This document shows, one piece after another, positions 12,165 to 20,736 of a stretch of 40,825 nt of DNA. The stretch lies in IMG/VR virus record IMGVR_UViG_3300044712_000677, positions 1-40,825 of that record; one strand, given 5' to 3'. The position numbers and the translations under genes are program-made. Within the stretch, counting starts at the first letter, position 1, and every line of letters starts with the position of its first letter. Origin of the DNA: a virus. The notes under the pieces are model-generated. The model was not told where the DNA came from, did no database searches, and was given only the letters and a program-made list of their open reading frames with translations.

Positions 12165-12997
12165 GAAAGCCATTTGATGGTGAGTACATACAGACACAGG
12201 GATTCAACGACCCTTGCTGTCAAGCCTCTTATAAGCAGTTTGGAATGAAAGGACATAATGGTTTAGACTTCGCTACCCCCTCAGGAACTAAGATACTTGC
12301 ACCCCACGATGGAAAAGTAATTGAATCAACACTAGACCCCGCAGGATATGGTATTTACGTTAAAATTGAGAACTCTGTAGAAGGTTCAGTTTTAGCTCAT
12401 CTACGGGAGGCAAGAGTGGGAGTAGGTGATGGAGTAAAAGAGGGAGATTTAATAGGATATTCAGATAACTCAGGCAACTCAACAGGCCCACATCTTCACT
12501 GGGGATACTACCGTTTCCCACGGGATAGAGCTAATGGATTTGCAGGATTTATAGACCAAACCCCATATATAGGAACTGGAACTCCAAACCTTGACCAACA
12601 GAAGCAATTAGATGAGTGTCGTATAGACCGTGATGGAAACCACAACGATAGAATGGCTCTTTATGAAGAATTAGGCTTTACGGGAGTATTTAATCGAACA
12701 GTAGCTGTAGAGAAGATTAAACAGTTACTTGCGCTGGAAAAGTCATTCGTCCTAAAAGATGAACAATTAAAAAAGACACAAGATGAATTGACAGCAGTAA
12801 GAGGACAACTCCAGATAGTGACAGACTCCCATGATGCCCTCCAGACCTCGTACAATGACCTACAGAAGGAGTTTACTACCGAGAAGGCAACTATAGACAC
12901 CTTGAATACAAAACTCATTGATTTGGAGGCTATGATAAAAGCCCCCGTTCGGTTGGGATGGAAGGCAAGATTGGTAGCTTTTATAGACAGAATATAA
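12161..12997 (+). CDS. endolysin, M23 family metallopeptidase
   Basis: 278 aa. The M23 zinc site is complete: H32 and D36 in GHNGLD, H80 in LAHL, and H111/H113 in GPHLHW. This family cuts peptide cross-links of peptidoglycan. After the catalytic domain (about 1-130) comes a linker and a long coiled coil (about 190-255, rich in Leu, Glu and Lys), then a basic end (LGWKARLVAFIDRI). No signal peptide, so release needs the holin. The start at 12161 is set by ATGA coupling to the 15-aa leader; an in-frame ATG at 12143 is possible. Confidence 0.85.
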   Translation: MRKPFDGEYIQTQGFNDPCCQASYKQFGMKGHNGLDFATPSGTKILAPHDGKVIESTLDPAGYGIYVKIENSVEGSVLAHLREARVGVGDGVKEGDLIGYSDNSGNSTGPHLHWGYYRFPRDRANGFAGFIDQTPYIGTGTPNLDQQKQLDECRIDRDGNHNDRMALYEELGFTGVFNRTVAVEKIKQLLALEKSFVLKDEQLKKTQDELTAVRGQLQIVTDSHDALQTSYNDLQKEFTTEKATIDTLNTKLIDLEAMIKAPVRLGWKARLVAFIDRI

Positions 12998-13170
12998 ATG
13001 AAAGAATTTTACCTACAAGCATTACGGAGGAAGGTAAGCAATTATTTTTTGAACTATTTGGCGTCACGTTCGAACAAGCGAAAGAACTTGCAACGTGGGA
13101 AGGCGAAGTAGGAAAATATTGGAAAGGGTATATTTATTTATCTCAAGGAGGGATATGTCAAAAGCACTGA
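12958..13170 (+). CDS. uncertain small ORF between endolysin and holin
   Basis: 70 aa, overlapping the endolysin end by 40 bases and the holin start by 16. The middle looks protein-like (QLFFELFGVTFEQAKELATW, VGKYWKGYIYL), but no ribosome site precedes the ATG at 12958. A competing frame (12998-13111, 37 aa, very basic) starts right after the endolysin stop (TAAATG). I favour the longer frame on composition. Function unknown. Confidence 0.4.
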   Translation: MEGKIGSFYRQNINERILPTSITEEGKQLFFELFGVTFEQAKELATWEGEVGKYWKGYIYLSQGGICQKH

Positions 13171-13455: not shown

Positions 13456-13689
13456 TCAGGAAATTACAGGGTTATTTTTTCTTTCTACTGCTCGTTTATA
13501 CGAATCATACAATCTAAACTTATACAATACATTTCCCTTCCAAAGGATAAATAATGAGATATATTGATACGTCATAGACTCCATAGATTCAGACATCAAA
13601 TTCGTTTCTATAGTCAATTTCCATATACGCATGTGAAAATCAAGCAATGGATAGCGTGTTGGAAATACTCCTTCTGTATACATTGCCAT
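13456..13689 (-). CDS. hypothetical early protein
   Basis: 77 aa. The ATG at 13689 lies one base after the previous stop, with an AAGGAGG site inside the upstream gene's end. Aromatic and Met-rich (YPLLDFHMRIWKLTIETN; YQYISLFILWKGNVLYKFRL) with a basic C-terminus; one weakly hydrophobic stretch. No family recognised. Its place as penultimate gene of the leftward operon suggests a host-takeover protein. Confidence 0.55.
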   Translation of the reverse strand: MAMYTEGVFPTRYPLLDFHMRIWKLTIETNLMSESMESMTYQYISLFILWKGNVLYKFRLYDSYKRAVERKNNPVIS

Positions 13690-13690
13690 A

Positions 13691-14194
13691 CTATTTTTCC
13701 TCCTTCATCTGGTCAAGAGCTAGGCGTACAGTTTCTAATGCTTTTTTATGTCCTGTATTTCTTGCAGAGCAAGAACATTCTTCCCATGCTTGTTCACATG
13801 TAGCGCAATAATCATTTCCATTTCTATTTTGTGCTGGTTGTGCATAATATGGCAACTCTTTTATTGATTTCACTTCCTTCTCAACTCTCTCAATCGTTTC
13901 TTTTCTCGCCTCAGCTAAGGTGGTGATGAGCCAAGATTCAAGTTCATTCAAAATTTCTCTATGATTTTGTCTATCACATGAATCTCCACCACAACACAAA
14001 TCATCAATACCAAACTTCTCCCTAAACTCAGCGATTCGTTGTGAGTCTAGTTTCATAGTAGGTGGAGTAGGCTCAATCCATCCTGTATTCGGAAATGCCT
14101 TAGCGCCACATTCACATAAATACCATCCGCTATCATCCATAACTCGTTTCCCATTTTTATCCTTCTGTATGTCATGAACGTGTATCTTTTTCAT
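13691..14194 (-). CDS. Cys-rich early protein
   Basis: 167 aa with several Cys clusters: CECG near residue 28, CCGGDSC near 67-73, and CATCEQAWEECSC near 129-141, plausibly two or more zinc sites. The centre is helical (ITTLAEARKETIERVEKEVK). It may bind nucleic acid or protein. It ends with a Shine-Dalgarno-like AAGGAGG that serves the next gene. Family not recognised. Confidence 0.65.
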   Translation of the reverse strand: MKKIHVHDIQKDKNGKRVMDDSGWYLCECGAKAFPNTGWIEPTPPTMKLDSQRIAEFREKFGIDDLCCGGDSCDRQNHREILNELESWLITTLAEARKETIERVEKEVKSIKELPYYAQPAQNRNGNDYCATCEQAWEECSCSARNTGHKKALETVRLALDQMKEEK

Positions 14195-14219
14195 ATTTCT
14201 ATCGGGTGTGGTTTGGATG

Positions 14220-14318
14220 TTATCTATATCTATCTTCCAATATTTTATTCATGATATAGTTCATGACAATCATTCCTAACATAAAGCCTATCATTCCAAA
14301 TGCTACTTTTTCATCCAT
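14220..14318 (-). CDS. 32-aa membrane microprotein
   Basis: ATG at 14318 behind a good GGAGGA site, stop TAA at 14220. Met/Gly/Ile-rich single helix (VAFGMIGFMLGMIVMNYIM) with a charged tail (KILEDRYR). No homologue recognised. One of several tiny membrane peptides of this operon. Confidence 0.6.
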   Translation of the reverse strand: MDEKVAFGMIGFMLGMIVMNYIMNKILEDRYR

Positions 14319-14347
14319 ATTCCTCCACCCTAATAGGGGTTATTTGT

Positions 14348-14743
14348 TTATAGTGTTTTATATAATGCAATCTGTTCTACTAATTCATCATCGGTTAACT
14401 TCTTGATTATCATCTTCTCTTTATTTAACCATTTCATCCTGTCAGGAAATTTCTTTTCAAACCATTTCCCTGCTTCTGTAGGATTCTTGTGCCACCAGTT
14501 CAAATGATGGTGATAACAGAGCACTTTCATATTCAATGGCTCAAACCGTAGATGCTGTCCATGACTGACTGGAATGACGTGTGAAGCATGACAATTACTA
14601 CCTTCACAATATATCCCGCAATACTGACAGATATGCTCATCTCTGCGTTTTACAAAATCCTTTACTAACTTATCCAACTGTAAAATCAGTCTTCTTCTAT
14701 TTAACTTTAGCTTTTTCTTCTTAACTGGTTTTTGAATAATCAT
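14348..14743 (-). CDS. ninG: NinG/HNH-type recombination endonuclease
   Basis: 131 aa. A very basic N-terminus (residues 1-20) is followed by CQYCG (39-43), CHASHVIPVSHG (51-62) and CYHHHLNWWHKNP (76-88), the Cys/His pattern of lambda NinG (Rap), a structure-specific endonuclease that cuts branched recombination intermediates. The length is shorter than lambda NinG but covers the metal core. Expressed in the early operon, overlapping the upstream gene by ATGA. A generic HNH nuclease remains possible. Confidence 0.7.
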   Translation of the reverse strand: MIIQKPVKKKKLKLNRRRLILQLDKLVKDFVKRRDEHICQYCGIYCEGSNCHASHVIPVSHGQHLRFEPLNMKVLCYHHHLNWWHKNPTEAGKWFEKKFPDRMKWLNKEKMIIKKLTDDELVEQIALYKTL

Positions 14744-15135
14744 AGTGAATTTAATCGGTCAATTATTTCGTTGATTTTATCCGTAAGTGCATATCCCCAT
14801 TTAACGTATTCTATTCGTGGGAGTTTCTCTATCTTTTTATAAAGTTTATAGTCTGGTTTAAATCCATATTCATTTGCCTGTTCTTTTAGTCTTTTGTTAA
14901 TAAAATCCATTGAGACTTCATGTACTTTTTGTCCAGTTGATATAAACTGACCCTTTTTATTCCGATACTTCCCTGTACGTGATGGGGTGTATTTTTTGAG
15001 TTTTATTTCCTCAATCCAAGCTGCGCATTCTTTCATCCAATAAATATTCTCGTTTAGTATCGTACCTGCACGTTCTATTGTATAAATTCTTTTCGTTCGT
15101 ATATGCCTTACTGTATCTCCAACTTTGAATTTCAT
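14740..15135 (-). CDS. hypothetical early protein with SH3-like N-terminus
   Basis: 131 aa from the ATG at 15135, chosen because an AGGAGGGACGGGG site precedes it. Residues 1-25 (MKFKVGDTVRHIRTKRIYTI) have the pattern of small SH3-like beta barrels (KVGDxVR). The rest is basic and helical (YGFKPDYKLYKKIEKLPR). It overlaps the NinG-like gene by ATGA. Possibly a nucleic-acid-binding or host-interacting protein; not identified further. Confidence 0.6.
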   Translation of the reverse strand: MKFKVGDTVRHIRTKRIYTIERAGTILNENIYWMKECAAWIEEIKLKKYTPSRTGKYRNKKGQFISTGQKVHEVSMDFINKRLKEQANEYGFKPDYKLYKKIEKLPRIEYVKWGYALTDKINEIIDRLNSL

Positions 15136-15209
15136 ATCCCCGTCCCTCCTATAAGAGCAGCCCAATAGAGAATGAGTAAATCTAAAAGGGCGTAAAGTAT
15201 AGTTTTCAT
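15132..15209 (-). CDS. 25-aa membrane microprotein
   Basis: ATG at 15209, one base after the preceding stop; TGA at 15132 overlaps the next ATG. Nearly all hydrophobic (MKTILYALLDLLILYWAALI). Its coding region also contains the AGGAGGG site used by the next gene. Short, but tightly fitted between two overlapping genes. Confidence 0.5.
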   Translation of the reverse strand: MKTILYALLDLLILYWAALIGGTGI

Positions 15210-15210
15210 A

Positions 15211-15327
15211 TTAATACTCCTGTAATCCCATTGTGTCTTTTACCTCACAATGACAAATACTTCCTGCTATTTTTAATTTCTTACAGAAAGGACAAATAAC
15301 TTTTTTAATTATTATTTTCTTTTTCAT
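15211..15327 (-). CDS. 38-aa zinc-ribbon microprotein
   Basis: ATG at 15327 overlapping the upstream TGA (ATGA). Basic N-terminus (MKKKIIIKK), then CPFCKKLK and ICHCEV, giving a CxxC-x8-CxC metal knuckle. Likely a small nucleic-acid- or protein-binding zinc domain. No further family assignment. Confidence 0.6.
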   Translation of the reverse strand: MKKKIIIKKVICPFCKKLKIAGSICHCEVKDTMGLQEY

Positions 15328-15497
15328 ATAATCCACAAGAACACCAACACTTCTATAAATAAAATACCTACTAAACACGATAATCTCTGGTCTTGAGTCA
15401 TATATCTTTGGAAGCGTCCATTCTTCCCCCGTTTAATAAGTTGTACACGTGCACTTACTACGTTGTCTTTAAAGCGATATATTCTTATTTTTTCCAT
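15324..15497 (-). CDS. 57-aa basic protein with C-terminal membrane anchor
   Basis: Start chosen at 15497 because GAGGAA lies 4 bases upstream; an in-frame ATG at 15509 sits before that site. Residues 1-38 are basic (RVQLIKRGKNGRFQRY); residues about 40-57 are hydrophobic (LVGILFIEVLVFLWII), so it is probably tail-anchored. Its ribosome site is buried in the long stem of the RNA leader at 15500-15669, which implies translation control. Function unknown. Confidence 0.6.
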   Translation of the reverse strand: MEKIRIYRFKDNVVSARVQLIKRGKNGRFQRYMTQDQRLSCLVGILFIEVLVFLWII

Positions 15498-15499
15498 AT

Positions 15500-15669
15500 G
15501 ATTCCTCATAGTCGGGTATAGTCTGCCTCACAGCCTGCCGATTGTGAACATCTCCATACCCGCCTATCAAGAATCCAGGTAAGAGAGGACAGCTCATAGG
15601 GCTTAGTTACTTACCATCCTCTTTTATCTGGAGCGAAGGCCCAATTGCCCGAACCTTTTCCTTCGCCCC
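15500..15669 (-). ncRNA. structured 5' leader RNA (putative cis-regulator)
   Basis: About 170 nt with no gene in it, transcribed leftward from the -10 box at 15679-15674. Elements in order: a 10-bp hairpin at the predicted 5' end (15669-15660 with 15639-15630, one G.U); competing stems AGAGGA/UCCUCU and GGUAAG/CUUACC in the middle; then a long arm made of a 12-position outer stem (15575-15564 with 15511-15500, one mismatch), CGGGUAU/AUACCCG (15562-15556 with 15519-15513) and UUCACA/UGUGAG (15548-15543 with 15532-15527). The outer stem traps the GAGGAA ribosome site of the next gene. Candidate riboswitch, thermosensor or protein-binding leader. Confidence 0.6.
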
Positions 15670-15673
15670 ACAC

Positions 15674-15679
15674 ATTATA
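15674..15679 (-). promoter_or_regulatory. -10 box of the structured leader
   Basis: TATAAT on the minus strand, overlapping the stop codon of the upstream membrane-protein gene. Applying the +7 spacing of the other promoters puts +1 at about 15667-15669, the first base of the 10-bp hairpin. Confidence 0.55.
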
Positions 15680-15938
15680 TCCAAGCAAACAAAATCAATA
15701 ACCACACAATAACATCAATCCATGAAGGTATTCCTGACATATTTATTATCGTCATAATAATAGACAATACCATGATTGCGACTGATAAATGACGGTCTAA
15801 TTTCACATCAAAATATCCCAGTGCTACAAATCCAAATAGAGGAATTAATTGAAGACCAGTTCCTCCATATATTGCTGACAACGTAGCTAATATTCCTACT
15901 ATCCAAATCATTACCCATTTAAAGTTTGTTTTTTTCAT
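15675..15938 (-). CDS. polytopic membrane protein
   Basis: 87 aa with about three to four hydrophobic helices (VMIWIVGILATLSAIYGG; LIPLFGFVALGYF; SVAIMVLSIIMTIINM; IDVIVWLLILFAW) separated by short loops. ATG overlaps the upstream TGA. Lys-rich N-terminus suggests the N-inside orientation. Its place in the early operon, away from the lysis genes, suggests superinfection exclusion or host-membrane modification rather than a holin. The TAA lies inside the -10 box of the next transcript. Confidence 0.65.
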   Translation of the reverse strand: MKKTNFKWVMIWIVGILATLSAIYGGTGLQLIPLFGFVALGYFDVKLDRHLSVAIMVLSIIMTIINMSGIPSWIDVIVWLLILFAWI

Positions 15939-16105
15939 GTTTCACCTCCTTTACCATACATCTTCTTAATATCTTCTACCGTATGCTCCCGACAGTTCCA
16001 ACATAATCTCAAATTTTCTGGGAGTTTTAGTGCCCAATCTCCCATATGCGCTTTGCATTTAAAACAGTGCGCTTGATATCTGATATCGTTAGTTGATAGT
16101 GCCAT
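15935..16105 (-). CDS. 56-aa zinc-ribbon protein
   Basis: Start chosen at 16105 (MALSTNDIRYQAHCFKCK), overlapping the end of the previous gene; the upstream extension in this frame is the shadow of that gene. CFKC and CWNC are separated by about 18 residues, a classical four-Cys zinc ribbon. Ends KKMYGKGGET. Likely nucleic-acid or protein binding. ATGA coupling to the next gene. Confidence 0.6.
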   Translation of the reverse strand: MALSTNDIRYQAHCFKCKAHMGDWALKLPENLRLCWNCREHTVEDIKKMYGKGGET

Positions 16106-16277
16106 AGGTTTCGTGTAAAACCAGTTGTGAATATTCTTCTCCATACTCAATCCACTCATCGGGTGATAACCCGTCAAGCCATTCCTCATACGCATTCGGA
16201 AGGTCATCATCCAGAATGGTCGGATTCTCCGCCTGATGCTTGAATTGTAGAAAATCTATAAAGTCTCTATATTTCAT
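16089..16277 (-). CDS. 62-aa acidic early protein
   Basis: Start chosen at 16277, one base after the upstream TAA, with a purine-rich GGAAAAAG before it. Strongly acidic (LDDDLPNAYEEWLDGLSPDE; EWIEYGEEYSQ), with Trp and Tyr. The composition recalls small DNA-mimic or anti-host proteins, but no family is recognised. Confidence 0.6.
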   Translation of the reverse strand: MKYRDFIDFLQFKHQAENPTILDDDLPNAYEEWLDGLSPDEWIEYGEEYSQLVLHETYGTIN

Positions 16278-16278
16278 A

Positions 16279-16671
16279 TTACTTTTTCCAACAAAGGTCT
16301 CCACAATACGGTTTGTTTTTTACAGCCGACCATTTATTATCTGCTCCACAGTGGGAACACTTACCCCAGCTGCCTTTTGAGGTCGTAGGTTGACTTACAA
16401 CGGCTTTTTGACCCTGGGGTGGTGTAGTTGACCCTTCAGTCTTCCAGTCGGGCTTCCACCCGTCTCTTTTAAACTTGGCTACTATGGCTTGTACACGGAC
16501 ATAAAGATTGGTTGCGTTTGTATCCCTTATGGTAAACATACATCCGTAGTTATCTTTATCCCATACGTGTAAGGTTGCTGAAGCGGGTGCTTCTGCTCCT
16601 GGTGACAACAACTCACTCGGTACAGGTTGGGCTTGGTCTAATACCATATCGACATCATTTGGTTCAAACAT
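16279..16671 (-). CDS. early protein with C-terminal zinc knuckle
   Basis: 130 aa; the ATG at 16671 is preceded by GAGGAGGA. An N-terminal Pro/Ala/Ser-rich stretch precedes a compact beta region (ATLHVWDKDNYGCMFTIRDT) and a helix (VQAIVAKFKRDGWKPDW), then a linker, then CSHCGADNKWSAVKNKPYCG with a further Cys (CxxC-x14-CxxxC). Zinc knuckle plus a beta core could suit single-stranded DNA or RNA binding; this is a guess. Confidence 0.6.
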   Translation of the reverse strand: MFEPNDVDMVLDQAQPVPSELLSPGAEAPASATLHVWDKDNYGCMFTIRDTNATNLYVRVQAIVAKFKRDGWKPDWKTEGSTTPPQGQKAVVSQPTTSKGSWGKCSHCGADNKWSAVKNKPYCGDLCWKK

Positions 16672-16831
16672 GTTCCTCCTCAAATATAAATTTTACTGTT
16701 TTACTTCCGCACTTTTTACACTGCAAGTCTTGCACTTTGGAATCGTTTATTCTTCCAAGGCAATCCATGTGTCTAATATCTCTAACTTCTTTCACCTCAT
16801 ACTCACAATTGCAAACGTTATCTTTACTCAT
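16664..16831 (-). CDS. 55-aa zinc-ribbon protein
   Basis: ATG at 16831 overlaps the upstream TGA (ATGA). CNCEYEV near the N-terminus and CKKCGSK near residue 38 provide four to five Cys for one zinc. Its end contains the GAGGAGGA site and overlaps the next ATG. The coding DNA also includes a TGCAAG-T-CTTGCA palindrome at 16722-16734. Confidence 0.6.
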   Translation of the reverse strand: MSKDNVCNCEYEVKEVRDIRHMDCLGRINDSKVQDLQCKKCGSKTVKFIFEEEHV

Positions 16832-17010
16832 ATAACCTCACTTTCGTGTGTTGGCTCCATTTGGGCGACAAATTTATATACATCCTTTTTACTCTTCTCG
16901 ATTCGTTGTAATACCTCTTCCCATGTGATTTGGTCACGGGCGTATAACAATGTGTTGGTTGCGGTGGCAATAAGTGCCAACTCAATCTTTGCTTCTAAAA
17001 GTTTATTCAT
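16828..17010 (-). CDS. 60-aa helical early protein
   Basis: Starts inside the end of the excisionase-like gene (ATGAATAA) and ends with an ATGA overlap. All-helical prediction (LLEAKIELALIATATNTLLY; WEEVLQRIEKSKKDVYKFVA), soluble and slightly acidic. No family recognised. Confidence 0.65.
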   Translation of the reverse strand: MNKLLEAKIELALIATATNTLLYARDQITWEEVLQRIEKSKKDVYKFVAQMEPTHESEVI

Positions 17011-17179
17011 GTTCCTTCTTTCCCCCCCACAAATAATCTATGAGGGCATCTTCTGATATCCGAACCAAATTCCCGATTTTAAACACTTTCAACTTCCCGC
17101 TCTTGATGAGCTTGTCAACGGTTCGGATGTTGACTTGAAGTTTGAGTGCTGTTGTTTGTCGTGTCATTAGGTTTTCCAT
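17003..17179 (-). CDS. excisionase/MerR-like helix-turn-helix DNA-binding protein
   Basis: 58 aa with the HTH_17 (excisionase family) signature: TALKLQVNIRTVDKLIKSGK for the helix-turn-helix, then the wing LKVFKIGNLVRISEDALIDYL. These proteins bend DNA at recombination sites or regulate transcription. No integrase was found, so a regulator is more likely. It has the best promoter of the window (TTGACA, 16 bases, TACACT) 6 bases before its ATG. Confidence 0.8.
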   Translation of the reverse strand: MENLMTRQTTALKLQVNIRTVDKLIKSGKLKVFKIGNLVRISEDALIDYLWGGKKEHE

Positions 17180-17185
17180 ACTCTT

Positions 17186-17213
17186 AGTGTAACAGAATGT
17201 ACAGTAGTGTCAA
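17186..17213 (-). promoter_or_regulatory. consensus -35/-10 promoter of the excisionase-like gene
   Basis: Minus-strand TTGACA (17213-17208), 16-base spacer, TACACT (17191-17186), then 6 bases to the ATG at 17179: a leaderless sigma70-type promoter. Confidence 0.75.
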
Positions 17214-17224
17214 TAGGCAGTATT

Positions 17225-17683
17225 TCACGTACTGACGCCCCGTTTAAAAAATGAACAATATGGGGAATTTCTAACAATGTCTTTTTTTATTAATCTGTAG
17301 GTCATTGTTGTTCCATCGGTTCCTTTTAATCCCCGAAGGTTGCAGTAGTTGCTTTTAAGCAAATGAAGAAGGGCTTCCCGTGTTATAAAGTAATACCCCT
17401 CCTCATCAACGATAATCCACCATTCAGCTGTAGAAGCAATAATTCCACTGTCCTTTTCGTTCATGGAGTGTTCAATGAAAAAGTTGTCGGTTTTTGAACT
17501 CTTGATATCGTGTTTGACTTCTATGGTGGTAATTTGGGGGACTTCTATGTCAAAGGCACTGTGGTTGCCTACAATCTTTCTAGCGGTGGGGTATTTCCTT
17601 TGGATGATACGGAGAACCTCATACTCTACTTTCAAGGCATCATCTCTGTCTTCTGTAAAATCAGATATATTTACGCTGTTCAT
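17225..17683 (-). CDS. PD-(D/E)XK superfamily nuclease
   Basis: 152 aa. Core pattern: E20 in the first helix (KVEYEVLRIIQRKY), D45 in SAFDIEVP, then E55-V-K57 in TTIEVKHD, and F-I-E71, followed by a strand with SGIIASTAEWWIIVDEEGYY. This arrangement is typical of the restriction-endonuclease-like fold used in Holliday-junction resolvases, repair and packaging nucleases. Its partner in DNA metabolism may be the NinG-like enzyme. It starts within the end of the 41-aa gene. Confidence 0.7.
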   Translation of the reverse strand: MNSVNISDFTEDRDDALKVEYEVLRIIQRKYPTARKIVGNHSAFDIEVPQITTIEVKHDIKSSKTDNFFIEHSMNEKDSGIIASTAEWWIIVDEEGYYFITREALLHLLKSNYCNLRGLKGTDGTTMTYRLIKKDIVRNSPYCSFFKRGVST

Positions 17684-17786
17684 ACTTCAAATATTCTTTG
17701 AGTATAATCTTTTTTCCCTTACCATTTGCCTGTTTATAGAGTTTTTTCAACTTCTCTTTACAGACTAAATAGTCTACTAGTTTCAT
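17661..17786 (-). CDS. 41-aa basic early protein
   Basis: ATG at 17786 with TATAAT exactly 6 bases upstream; stop TGA at 17661 lies inside the nuclease gene. Lys/Tyr/Leu-rich (KEKLKKLYKQANGKGKKIIL), probably one or two helices. First gene of a leaderless sub-operon with the nuclease. Function unknown. Confidence 0.6.
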   Translation of the reverse strand: MKLVDYLVCKEKLKKLYKQANGKGKKIILKEYLKYEQRKYI

Positions 17787-17792
17787 AAGACT

Positions 17793-17798
17793 ATTATA
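17793..17798 (-). promoter_or_regulatory. -10 box, leaderless start of the 41-aa gene
   Basis: TATAAT on the minus strand, 6 bases before the ATG at 17786. Confidence 0.65.
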
Positions 17799-17932
17799 CT
17801 CTGGCTATATTTTAATATTGTGCGACATCCCCTTTATATCCCCTAGTCCCTTTAACTATATATACTTACTCGTAGAAGGACTGTCTTCGCCTAGGAATCA
17901 GAGTATTTTATAAACGGCGATTGGACTTGAAA

Positions 17933-18016
17933 TTATCTCACCATACGTTTCGTTTTACTCCTGTATCTGGTCAAGGTGGGATGTGCTTTCGCCTCCAGAT
18001 ACTCCCGCACGGCCAT
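17933..18016 (-). CDS. 27-aa basic peptide
   Basis: Coupled to the upstream gene by a TAATG overlap. Basic throughout (EYLEAKAHPTLTRYRSKTKR). Very short, but the overlap is typical of this operon. About 130 bases without an obvious gene follow (17799-17932), carrying only AT-rich sequence and the next promoter. Confidence 0.4.
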   Translation of the reverse strand: MAVREYLEAKAHPTLTRYRSKTKRMVR

Positions 18017-18240
18017 TACGATGGCTGTTTATCCCGTTTTTGTGCTAAATAATCTATTATTCCCTGATAATGTTTTTTAGAATGACGACGACCTGATACC
18101 CGTTGTTCAGGATGTTTTTTATGATTTCTCATATTTGGTCTGGATAGGTTTCTAACACAATACTGGATAATATCCATTGGTTCAGTAATACCAATATCTT
18201 TGAGGTGTTTAAGAGATAATTTTTGACGTTCAGTGAGCAT
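18016..18240 (-). CDS. 74-aa basic early protein
   Basis: Starts directly after a terminator-like U tract, with no Shine-Dalgarno. The N-terminal half is helical (LTERQKLSLKHLKDIGITEP), resembling a small HTH-like module; the C-terminal half is Lys/Arg/His-rich (NHKKHPEQRVSGRRHSKKHY). Probably binds nucleic acid. Not identified. Confidence 0.6.
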   Translation of the reverse strand: MLTERQKLSLKHLKDIGITEPMDIIQYCVRNLSRPNMRNHKKHPEQRVSGRRHSKKHYQGIIDYLAQKRDKQPS

Positions 18241-18305
18241 AAAAAAACCGCTTGTTCCTCTGGCCTGGGCGCTTGTCTAGAGCGGACCAGAGAAAAAAAC
18301 GGTTT
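18241..18305 (-). promoter_or_regulatory. nested-hairpin attenuator-like leader
   Basis: Read leftward: outer arms AAACCG/CGGTTT (18305-18300 with 18250-18245), inner CTCTGG/CCAGAG (18292-18287 with 18263-18258) and core CGCT/AGCG, ending in a run of seven T that touches the ATG at 18240. An intact terminator here would shut off the rest of the operon, so an attenuation or RNA-stability role is likely. Confidence 0.55.
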
Positions 18306-18345
18306 AGACAGTATTTCCACATATAACTGTACACCCTGCTATGGA

Positions 18346-18585
18346 TTATCTGTCAAGATACCAATTTTTAGGCTCTACAATCTTGAGTAAATATGTACAG
18401 CCTCTAATCTTAACGTGATACATTTTCCATCCACAATAATCTATTGTCGTATATCCGTAGAATAACCAAACAACCCACAGAAACGGCATTTTCCATAAAG
18501 GAATTTCATATATTGGGTATTTATCATCGTAAACTTTTACCTTTTTATATAACTTATCCATCTGTTTAAGCGTAAGTTTTTTCAT
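18346..18585 (-). CDS. 79-aa membrane-associated early protein
   Basis: ATG overlaps the upstream stop (ATGA). Basic N-terminus (KKLTLKQMDKLYKKVKVY), then one hydrophobic aromatic segment (PFLWVVWLFYGYTTIDY) and a small C-terminal domain (WKMYHVKIRGCTYLLKI). Single-pass or peripheral membrane protein. No family recognised. Confidence 0.6.
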   Translation of the reverse strand: MKKLTLKQMDKLYKKVKVYDDKYPIYEIPLWKMPFLWVVWLFYGYTTIDYCGWKMYHVKIRGCTYLLKIVEPKNWYLDR

Positions 18586-18956
18586 AGTTTTTGTTTACAC
18601 ATGCTACAGATAGTTATGGGTGTGTGTTCATGCTCTTCTTGGACTTTCTTTTCTGTAATGTATTTGGTTATGATTTTATTCCACGTGATATTCTTACCCT
18701 CTGGAAGCGATTGAATATCTGGATAGGTTAAATACATCTTACGGGCGTAGTAAAGGGTGCGTTCACTCATCTGGGTATCATTTGCAAGACCTTGCAAGGC
18801 TTCCAGCGACCCCAAAGGAGAGTCTACAATCAACTTCCCAATCTTCCAATATCCTTCTACAAGTATCCATCTACTCTGGAATACATGTTCTGTATTTATC
18901 GCCCTAATCTCATCAACTAACTCGGAATACACAGCGGAAGAGAGTTGCATTTCCAT
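18582..18956 (-). CDS. first leftward early protein, HTH-like with C-terminal Cys pair
   Basis: 124 aa. Residues about 30-90 (LVEGYWKIGKLIVD, then LQGLANDTQMSERTLYYARK) resemble the DNA-binding N-terminal region of DUF1016-type proteins and can form a helix-turn-helix. The end is Glu/His-rich, then CSMCKQKL. As first gene behind the main leftward promoter it is well placed to be an early regulator. The coding DNA holds a TTGCAAG-AC-CTTGCAA palindrome (18782-18797). Confidence 0.55.
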   Translation of the reverse strand: MEMQLSSAVYSELVDEIRAINTEHVFQSRWILVEGYWKIGKLIVDSPLGSLEALQGLANDTQMSERTLYYARKMYLTYPDIQSLPEGKNITWNKIITKYITEKKVQEEHEHTPITICSMCKQKL

Positions 18957-18962
18957 ACTCTG

Positions 18963-18968
18963 ATTATA
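18963..18968 (-). promoter_or_regulatory. -10 box of the leftward early operon
   Basis: TATAAT, 6 bases before the ATG at 18956. The 70 bases up to the rightward promoter form the divergent early control region. Confidence 0.7.
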
Positions 18969-19024
18969 CTAAATTGAAGAATGGATTGATAGAATACGAT
19001 GTGCGGGAAATACTTGCACGCCCG

Positions 19025-19033
19025 TGTTATAAT
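19025..19033 (+). promoter_or_regulatory. extended -10 promoter of the rightward early operon
   Basis: TGTTATAAT, 7 bases before a GTG start at 19041. Just upstream lies a CTTGCAC half-site and the palindrome CACGCCCGTG (19017-19026), possible operator sequences. Confidence 0.65.
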
Positions 19034-19040
19034 ACAAATC

Positions 19041-19094
19041 GTGAAAGAACTATGCATGTTGAATATGAAAGAATCATGTAGTAAGATGGTTTAA
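19041..19094 (+). CDS. 17-aa GTG-initiated peptide, possible displaced 5' end
   Basis: Starts at GTG with leaderless geometry and ends TAATG, coupled to the HNH gene. Its first seven residues (MKELCML) match the start of the 107-aa protein at 19521 (MRELCVL). Likely the original 5' end of that gene, separated by the endonuclease gene, or a coupling leader. Confidence 0.45.
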   Translation: MKELCMLNMKESCSKMV

Positions 19095-19528
19095 TGATAT
19101 GTCCAATATGTTCAAAAGTTTGCTCAGATAAAGTAGTTTCTTTTTCAAATCATTATAGATGGTGTTCGGGGATGCTTACGGAAAGACCACCTGTAACAAA
19201 AGAGACAAGAATTAAAATAGGTTTAGGAAATAAAGGGAAAAAAATAAGTGAACAACAGAGGATGAGTTTGAGTATAACCAGAATGGGAGAAAATAACCCT
19301 TTTTGGAAAGGCGATAACGTAGGATTAACAGGATTACATAGATGGATAAAAAGACATAAACCGAAAACAGATTACTGTGAACAATGTCATGTTAAAAAAC
19401 CTTTTGATTTAGCAAATATAAGTCAAAAATATTTAAGAGATATAAATGATTTTGAGTGGCTATGTAGAAAATGTCACATGAGCAAAGACGGAAGATTAAT
19501 GAAGTTTGTCAAAACTAAATATGCGTGA
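19094..19528 (+). CDS. HNH homing endonuclease with NUMOD3-like motif
   Basis: 144 aa. N-terminal zinc motif CPICSKVC with H and C further on; a NUMOD3-type DNA-binding repeat (KISEQQRMSLSITRMGENNP); and an HNH-like core with CEQC, ANISQKYLRDINDFEWLC and CRKCHMSKDG. Free-standing homing enzymes of this type cut related phage genomes and copy themselves in. AT-rich and slightly unlike the flanking genes. It overlaps the next start by eight bases. Confidence 0.75.
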   Translation: MICPICSKVCSDKVVSFSNHYRWCSGMLTERPPVTKETRIKIGLGNKGKKISEQQRMSLSITRMGENNPFWKGDNVGLTGLHRWIKRHKPKTDYCEQCHVKKPFDLANISQKYLRDINDFEWLCRKCHMSKDGRLMKFVKTKYA

Positions 19529-20145: not shown

Positions 20146-20423
20146 ACGGGTTTGATATATTAGCATTGGGTTTGACATCAATAGGGTGTTTTCTGGTGGG
20201 ATATTACACAGGAGTTGGGAAGAGTCCAAAAGAATTGATAAAAGAAATACAAATTGAATTGAAGAAAAGAAACACCCCCGTTGGACCAGTCAACCGCCCC
20301 TCCCCAGAAAAGGTGATACAATTTGGCAATAAACAGCAACAAGAAGAAGATGAAGCCTTTAAAGAATCATTCCTAAAAGAACACCCTGAAGTGAAGGAGT
20401 TATATGAACGGCAAAACGGCTAA
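20142..20423 (+). CDS. single-pass membrane protein with charged tail
   Basis: 93 aa. One N-terminal membrane helix (FDILALGLTSIGCFLVGYYT), then a Lys/Glu/Gln-rich helical domain (PKELIKEIQIELKKR; QQQEEDEAFKESFLKEHPEV). Topology like an inner-membrane spanin, but it lies in the early region far from the lysis genes, so a membrane-tethered early function is more likely. Confidence 0.65.
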   Translation: MNGFDILALGLTSIGCFLVGYYTGVGKSPKELIKEIQIELKKRNTPVGPVNRPSPEKVIQFGNKQQQEEDEAFKESFLKEHPEVKELYERQNG

Positions 20424-20577
20424 GAAACTACGAAGGTACTGTACTACCCAATCCAAGGACTATAAAGCCTACAAGGTGGCCTACAGTGCCTTAGACTGGG
20501 TAAACAGAACCATCATCAATAAAACCCTAGATATAGCCAATGGGAAAACCTTACAGGACACCCCCAATATGGCATAA
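20404..20577 (+). CDS. 57-aa basic protein, last rightward early gene
   Basis: ATG at 20404, 20 bases inside the previous gene in another frame; stop TAA at 20577. Basic and Tyr-rich (KTAKKLRRYCTTQSKDYKAY), then DWVNRTIINKTLDIANGKTL. Internally coherent composition supports a real gene. Converges with the leftward gene at 20581. Confidence 0.55.
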   Translation: MNGKTAKKLRRYCTTQSKDYKAYKVAYSALDWVNRTIINKTLDIANGKTLQDTPNMA

Positions 20578-20580
20578 AAA

Positions 20581-20736
20581 TTATACAGAATTGTCACGCT
20601 TACTCCACCGCACCTTCGCTCCATAACTCCCGATTTTTTTATAATAATCGGCGGGCTTGCTTTTCTTTAGCTTATTCCCTCCAATCTTACCCATTAATGA
20701 TGCCATTTCACTTATCTGCTTTTTTGTCACTTCCAT
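20581..20736 (-). CDS. 51-aa basic protein with near-perfect ribosome site
   Basis: ATG at 20736 behind AAAGGAGGTGAT, a full anti-16S match. Lys/Gly-rich (MGKIGGNKLKKSKPADYYKK), ending YGAKVRWSKRDNSV, like small phage proteins that bind DNA or RNA. Its promoter carries a TGCAAG-type palindrome, so it may be the repressed target of, or itself, a phage regulator. Confidence 0.6.
   Translation of the reverse strand: MEVTKKQISEMASLMGKIGGNKLKKSKPADYYKKIGSYGAKVRWSKRDNSV

Follow-up and report, generated by a model that had tools for sequence, protein, structure and literature searches.

RNase III-processed leaders include the lambda N leader and that of E. coli adhE. In the mRNAs of small membrane toxins, structure masks the ribosome site and processing or refolding releases it (PMC11228461). 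In translational riboswitches and thermosensors the leader is structured and its last stem pairs the Shine-Dalgarno (SD), and the phage leader considered here has the same predicted arrangement. The literature surveyed says little about how phages of Patescibacteria control their genes. The leader lies in a 40.8-kb virus record (IMG/VR IMGVR_UViG_3300044712_000677), which was analysed over its full length of 40,825 nucleotides (the window); all leader coordinates are on the minus strand. The best reading, tentative and at somewhat short of an even chance, is that it is an orphan cis-acting RNA that may restrain a putative membrane-protein gene until a hairpin arm opens.

What kind of virus carries this leader? 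Its portal is ~25% identical to the portals of TM7 phage DolZOral124_53_65 and MW202566, and 50% identical to one on a contig of a Patescibacteria MAG, the only MAG matched. From these similarities, the host probably belongs to the Patescibacteria, and the virus probably infects ultra-small cells of this group. The major capsid protein led to 66 related loci in IMG/VR, and a capsid search of genome contigs found nothing. No tRNA genes and no Rfam-recognised RNA were detected across the whole window.

The leader sits within a minus-strand run of small phage genes spanning 18956 to 13456, with these features:

18345-18241, minus strand: operon gap of 105 nt, structured.
18015-17787, minus strand: operon gap of 228 nt, unstructured.
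15675-15938, minus strand: gene for an 87-aa hydrophobic protein, upstream of the leader (ORF map, hydropathy).
15674-15679, minus strand: TATAAT overlapping the stop codon of the 87-aa gene; promoter function doubtful.
15498-15674, minus strand: gene-free structured leader, or intercistronic RNA (ORF map and folding).
15629-15670, minus strand: hairpin P1, with an 11-bp stem 15670-15660/15639-15629 (inverted repeat and fold).
15576-15630, minus strand: hairpin P2, an interrupted stem (pair probabilities 0.85-1.0).
15500-15575, minus strand: hairpin P3, a three-part arm predicted to pair the SD (20-nt inverted repeat, 85% complementary).
15504-15507, minus strand: SD of the 57-aa gene, GAGG, within P3 (sequence and pairing probabilities).
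15324-15497, minus strand: 57-aa gene whose product has a hydrophobic C-terminal stretch (ORF map, hydropathy).
14347-14195, minus strand: operon gap of 152 nt, which may contain a tiny ORF.

The gap that holds the leader runs from the TAA of the 87-aa gene to the ATG of the 57-aa gene in the ORF map. It measures 177 nt (15674-15498), in line with the gene-free segment of about 170 bases in the original prediction. It is not filled by any convincing ORF, although one of 42 aa (15597-15469) begins inside the gap without an SD. The operon had also been taken to be otherwise gapless, but this is wrong, as the further gaps of 228, 105 and 152 nt show. At 18241-18345 (minus strand) there is a terminator-like hairpin with A/U runs on both flanks, and this region is conserved, with ~78% identity over 90 nt to related record L088 (18446-18534).

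Is the 57-aa gene real? Its ATGA overlap with the next gene, which encodes a 38-aa protein with a cysteine motif (15327-15211), speaks for this. Residues 39-57 of its product form a 19-residue stretch with a mean hydropathy of 2.74, and the product is a putative small membrane protein. Searches of PHROG and Pfam gave no family match for it. Homologue searches with the 57-aa and 87-aa proteins returned two weak matches only, and none was confirmed.

On the minus-strand RNA the computed fold consists of three contiguous hairpins, P1, P2 and P3. Its minimum free energy (MFE) is -71.3 kcal/mol, where dinucleotide shuffles average -50.4 +/- 4.0 (z -5.2, 0 of 200 as good), and a 185-nt version with slightly different ends gives z -5.6. 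The leader thus folds far better than shuffled sequence, a comparison that the original prediction had suggested. Taken singly, P1, P2 and P3 have z scores of -2.8, -3.7 and -6.5. The plus-strand fold of the same region is weaker (MFE -53.0, z -3.5), and 9 of the 57 pairs in the leader are G-U pairs, which form only in minus-strand RNA. In a coarse, composition-corrected scan of its own genome the leader ranks third for structure (z -3.4), and it is therefore strong but not unique. At 20404-20577, a convergent gene junction, there is a 19-bp minus-strand hairpin (z -5.6) that lies within another putative 57-aa gene, on the plus strand.

Much of the architecture proposed earlier is recovered in this fold. 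The 10-bp hairpin expected at the start of the RNA corresponds to P1, with a stem of 11 bp. The long three-part terminal arm said to cover the SD corresponds to P3, which has an outer part of 7+4 bp, a middle part of 9 bp and an apical part of 8+2 bp, and which pairs SD bases 15506-15504. The P3 arm amounts to 20 bp with two mismatches, a long and nearly continuous duplex such as RNase III-processed leaders require. The proposal of mutually exclusive middle stems is not supported, however. The rival GGUAAG/CUUACC stem is negligible, being less stable by 5.1 kcal/mol and having a pair probability of ~1.6e-4.

How well hidden is the SD? The GAGG lies 6 nt ahead of the ATG in the 3' arm of P3, which stops 2 nt short of the start codon. 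The in silico unpaired probability of bases 15506-15504 is no more than 0.02 at 37 C and no more than 0.13 at 70 C. Opening the SD region is predicted to cost 11.4 kcal/mol, which ranks second among 44 gene starts. The highest cost, 12.5 kcal/mol, is that of another gene in the same operon (14740-15135, minus strand), even though the preceding gap shows no unusual degree of structure. When RNAs truncated from the 5' end so as to lose the 5' side of P3 are folded in silico, two SD bases become 73-97% free.

Structured gaps also occur elsewhere in the group. Among intergenic gaps of 100-400 nt, the share below z -3 is 24%, below z -4 it is 12% and below z -5 it is 7% (n=145, strand-specific, from 31 records, with 25 shuffles per gap and simple ORF calls). 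Several structured gaps of related phages are strong hairpins immediately 5' of small genes, and those before the capsid genes of relatives resemble intrinsic terminators. In other words, the leader fold is real but not singular in this phage group. Some of the other structures deserve mention in their own right. In L099 (4190-4330, plus strand) interleaved stems CTGCCCCG/CGGGGCAG and CTAACTATCTTGTGG/CCACAAGATAGTTGG precede a gene and could possibly form a large H-type pseudoknot; this element has no Rfam match. L084 has two similar minus-strand hairpins (12220-12480 and 12820-13080), AACxGCUyUUGA...GGAGCGGUUAAAAGUUA, each shortly 5' of a gene start. A 57-nt near-palindrome of TM7 phage MG269973 (L012 10796-10852) is ~80% shared with L072 12014-12068 and is perhaps an operator.

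Relatives of the leader were sought in several ways. By blastn there were none in phages or plasmids, and just two chance 12-mers in 47 related records. IMG/VR was scanned with three exact gapped hairpin patterns. Two gave nothing, and the third was discarded: it found seven contigs, and the three inspected were identical GC-rich stretches sharing only the pattern. A covariance model, R1, which was built from the leader alone and is as a single-sequence model a weak probe, had no accepted match over 64 related records or over 380 Patescibacteria genomes. Its single match was rejected as chance, falling inside a lepA gene with palindromic inserts. That gene, from a Patescibacteria genome (L127 185-2167), carries the inserts PHPNPLPQGERE and PSPQPSPIRGEGE in frame, and they resemble repeated palindromic elements within coding sequence. 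The same genome as the leader holds no second copy of it; the 10-mer GGAGCGAAGG at 20613, shared with the leader, looks like chance. The early region is poorly conserved among related records. Without a relative from these collections there is no covariation to read, and the fold is the only hint of selection.

Does the leader have its own promoter? A -10 box had been placed in the preceding stop codon, and a TATAAT does overlap it (15679-15674). The promoter part of this claim is doubtful, as the box is background-like and no -35 element paired with it was found. The window contains 54 TATAATs, against ~60 expected from composition. Ranked among background TATAATs, the context of this one scores at the 72nd percentile, and among inferred real promoters at the 12th; it is without the correctly placed TG of an extended -10. 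A transcript initiated from it would have its 5' end near 15667, at the P1 foot. A separate pattern emerged from the window and 30 related records. Across these 31 records, 73 ORF ATGs lie exactly 6 nt after a TATAAT, compared with roughly five at most other spacings. The consensus is GTGnTATAAT-N6-ATG with no -35, and examples in the window have TATAATs starting at 761, 18968, 23481 and 35461. It seems from these sequences that the probable Patescibacteria phages of this group use leaderless mRNAs from extended -10 promoters; among the papers searched there was no report of leaderless promoters in Patescibacteria.

What if the structure serves the transcript and has nothing to do with the 57-aa gene? 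The leader might be a constitutive element for mRNA processing or stability that divides the operon halves, with no dedicated control of that gene and an incidental overlap with the SD. Related phages have strong hairpins in operon gaps without SD masking, and most Patescibacteria encode RNase III. However, P3 abuts the start codon and the SD is among the two least accessible of the 44 starts in the window, so this explanation is unlikely, though it carries real weight. The leader might instead be a small RNA that acts in trans, or an RNA decoy, either transcribed from a promoter of its own or released from the operon mRNA by cleavage, with the 57-aa gene a mere neighbour. This would suit the compact, self-contained fold and the 5' end that the TATAAT would put at the P1 foot. 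It is improbable nonetheless, given the background-like promoter context, the lack of a -35 and of a 3' terminator, and the extension of P3 into the next gene's ribosome site. Perhaps the element acts as DNA. Three inverted repeats arranged head-to-tail could be tandem binding sites for a protein, serving as an operator or in replication or recombination, or they could be a small insertion, and the palindrome shared by MG269973 and another phage of the group indicates that DNA palindromes occur there. Against this, the transcribed strand folds much more strongly and uses G-U pairs, and no second copy exists in the window or in the relatives searched, which leaves a DNA-level role quite improbable.

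The original prediction went further and proposed a riboswitch or RNA thermosensor of no known class. The last point is borne out: Rfam 15 gives no match at the gathering score, and a relaxed threshold gave only chance matches. The SD does lie in the final stem of a leader with several hairpins, as would be expected of either device. However, the inference itself is now highly unlikely. A thermosensor is rejected on the temperature series, in which the SD stem shows no melting in the physiological range and the SD stays mostly paired up to 70 C in silico. For a riboswitch, the rival middle stem is not of comparable stability, known Rfam families are not matched, and no relatives were found in which a conserved core could show. 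Transcription attenuation is also rejected, as the leader is without an intrinsic terminator, and no terminator-like site was found on the minus strand over 13600-19100. A broader idea is that the leader belongs to a new regulatory RNA class of Patescibacteria phages, a three-hairpin switch for a small membrane protein triggered by ligand, protein or cleavage, whose relatives are lacking through poor sampling. This is very improbable. Being a sequence orphan, the leader qualifies as a candidate for structure probing and does not amount to evidence for a new class of switch.

This returns the argument to restraint in cis. That P3 exerts such a translational restraint on the 57-aa gene is possible, and on the modelled fold nearly as probable as its contrary. 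The idea is supported by the strength of the fold (z -5.2 to -5.6, against -3.5 for the opposite strand) and by the G-U pairs, and also by the position of P3 over the SD with an opening cost second of 44 starts. It is weakened because the searches gave no relative that might show covariation, because structured gaps are common in the group, because another gene of the same operon costs more to open, and because the SD is short (GAGG).

How might the restraint work? The proposal is that a structured cis-acting intercistronic leader lies on the transcript of the small-gene phage operon. In the intact transcript the 57-aa gene and the overlapping 38-aa gene would be poorly translated, and the dose of the 57-aa gene would thereby be uncoupled from that of the upstream genes. 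Opening of P3 would then make translation of the 57-aa gene possible. The likeliest opener would be host RNase III, or another endonuclease of that kind, cutting within the arm, because most of the SD is predicted to become free once such a cut takes away the 5' side of P3. Alternatively, the arm might be opened by a protein, by an antisense RNA or by a ribosome that comes in from the upstream side. P1 and P2 could act as a spacer, a 5' shield or additional processing sites. An RNase III gene is present in 53 of 59 sampled Patescibacteria genomes, and together with the predicted release of the SD this makes cleavage a plausible trigger, although as a specific proposal it has a rather low probability.

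How, then, does the leader compare with the described systems? It differs from riboswitches and thermosensors in that no conserved aptamer was found, no competing stem has weight and no Rfam family matches. With the RNase III-processed leaders it shares a long hairpin at or over the ribosome site that a nuclease could remove, the host in this case being inferred. Type I toxin mRNA leaders such as that of timP (PMC11228461) likewise use leader structure to cover the site where ribosomes bind to make a small, hydrophobic protein, and the combination of a small hydrophobic product and an SD paired in the predicted structure is found here too. However, no homology to timP-type leaders is apparent in sequence or structure, and the setting is a phage operon, not a stand-alone locus. 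A consensus scan, which is a weak test, found no plus-strand promoter-like site for an antisense RNA over 13600-15734. At most, the leader may work like the leaders of type I toxin mRNAs, by analogy and with no claim to membership. If it is functional, phages of Patescibacteria would share translational masking with other phages and with toxin genes.
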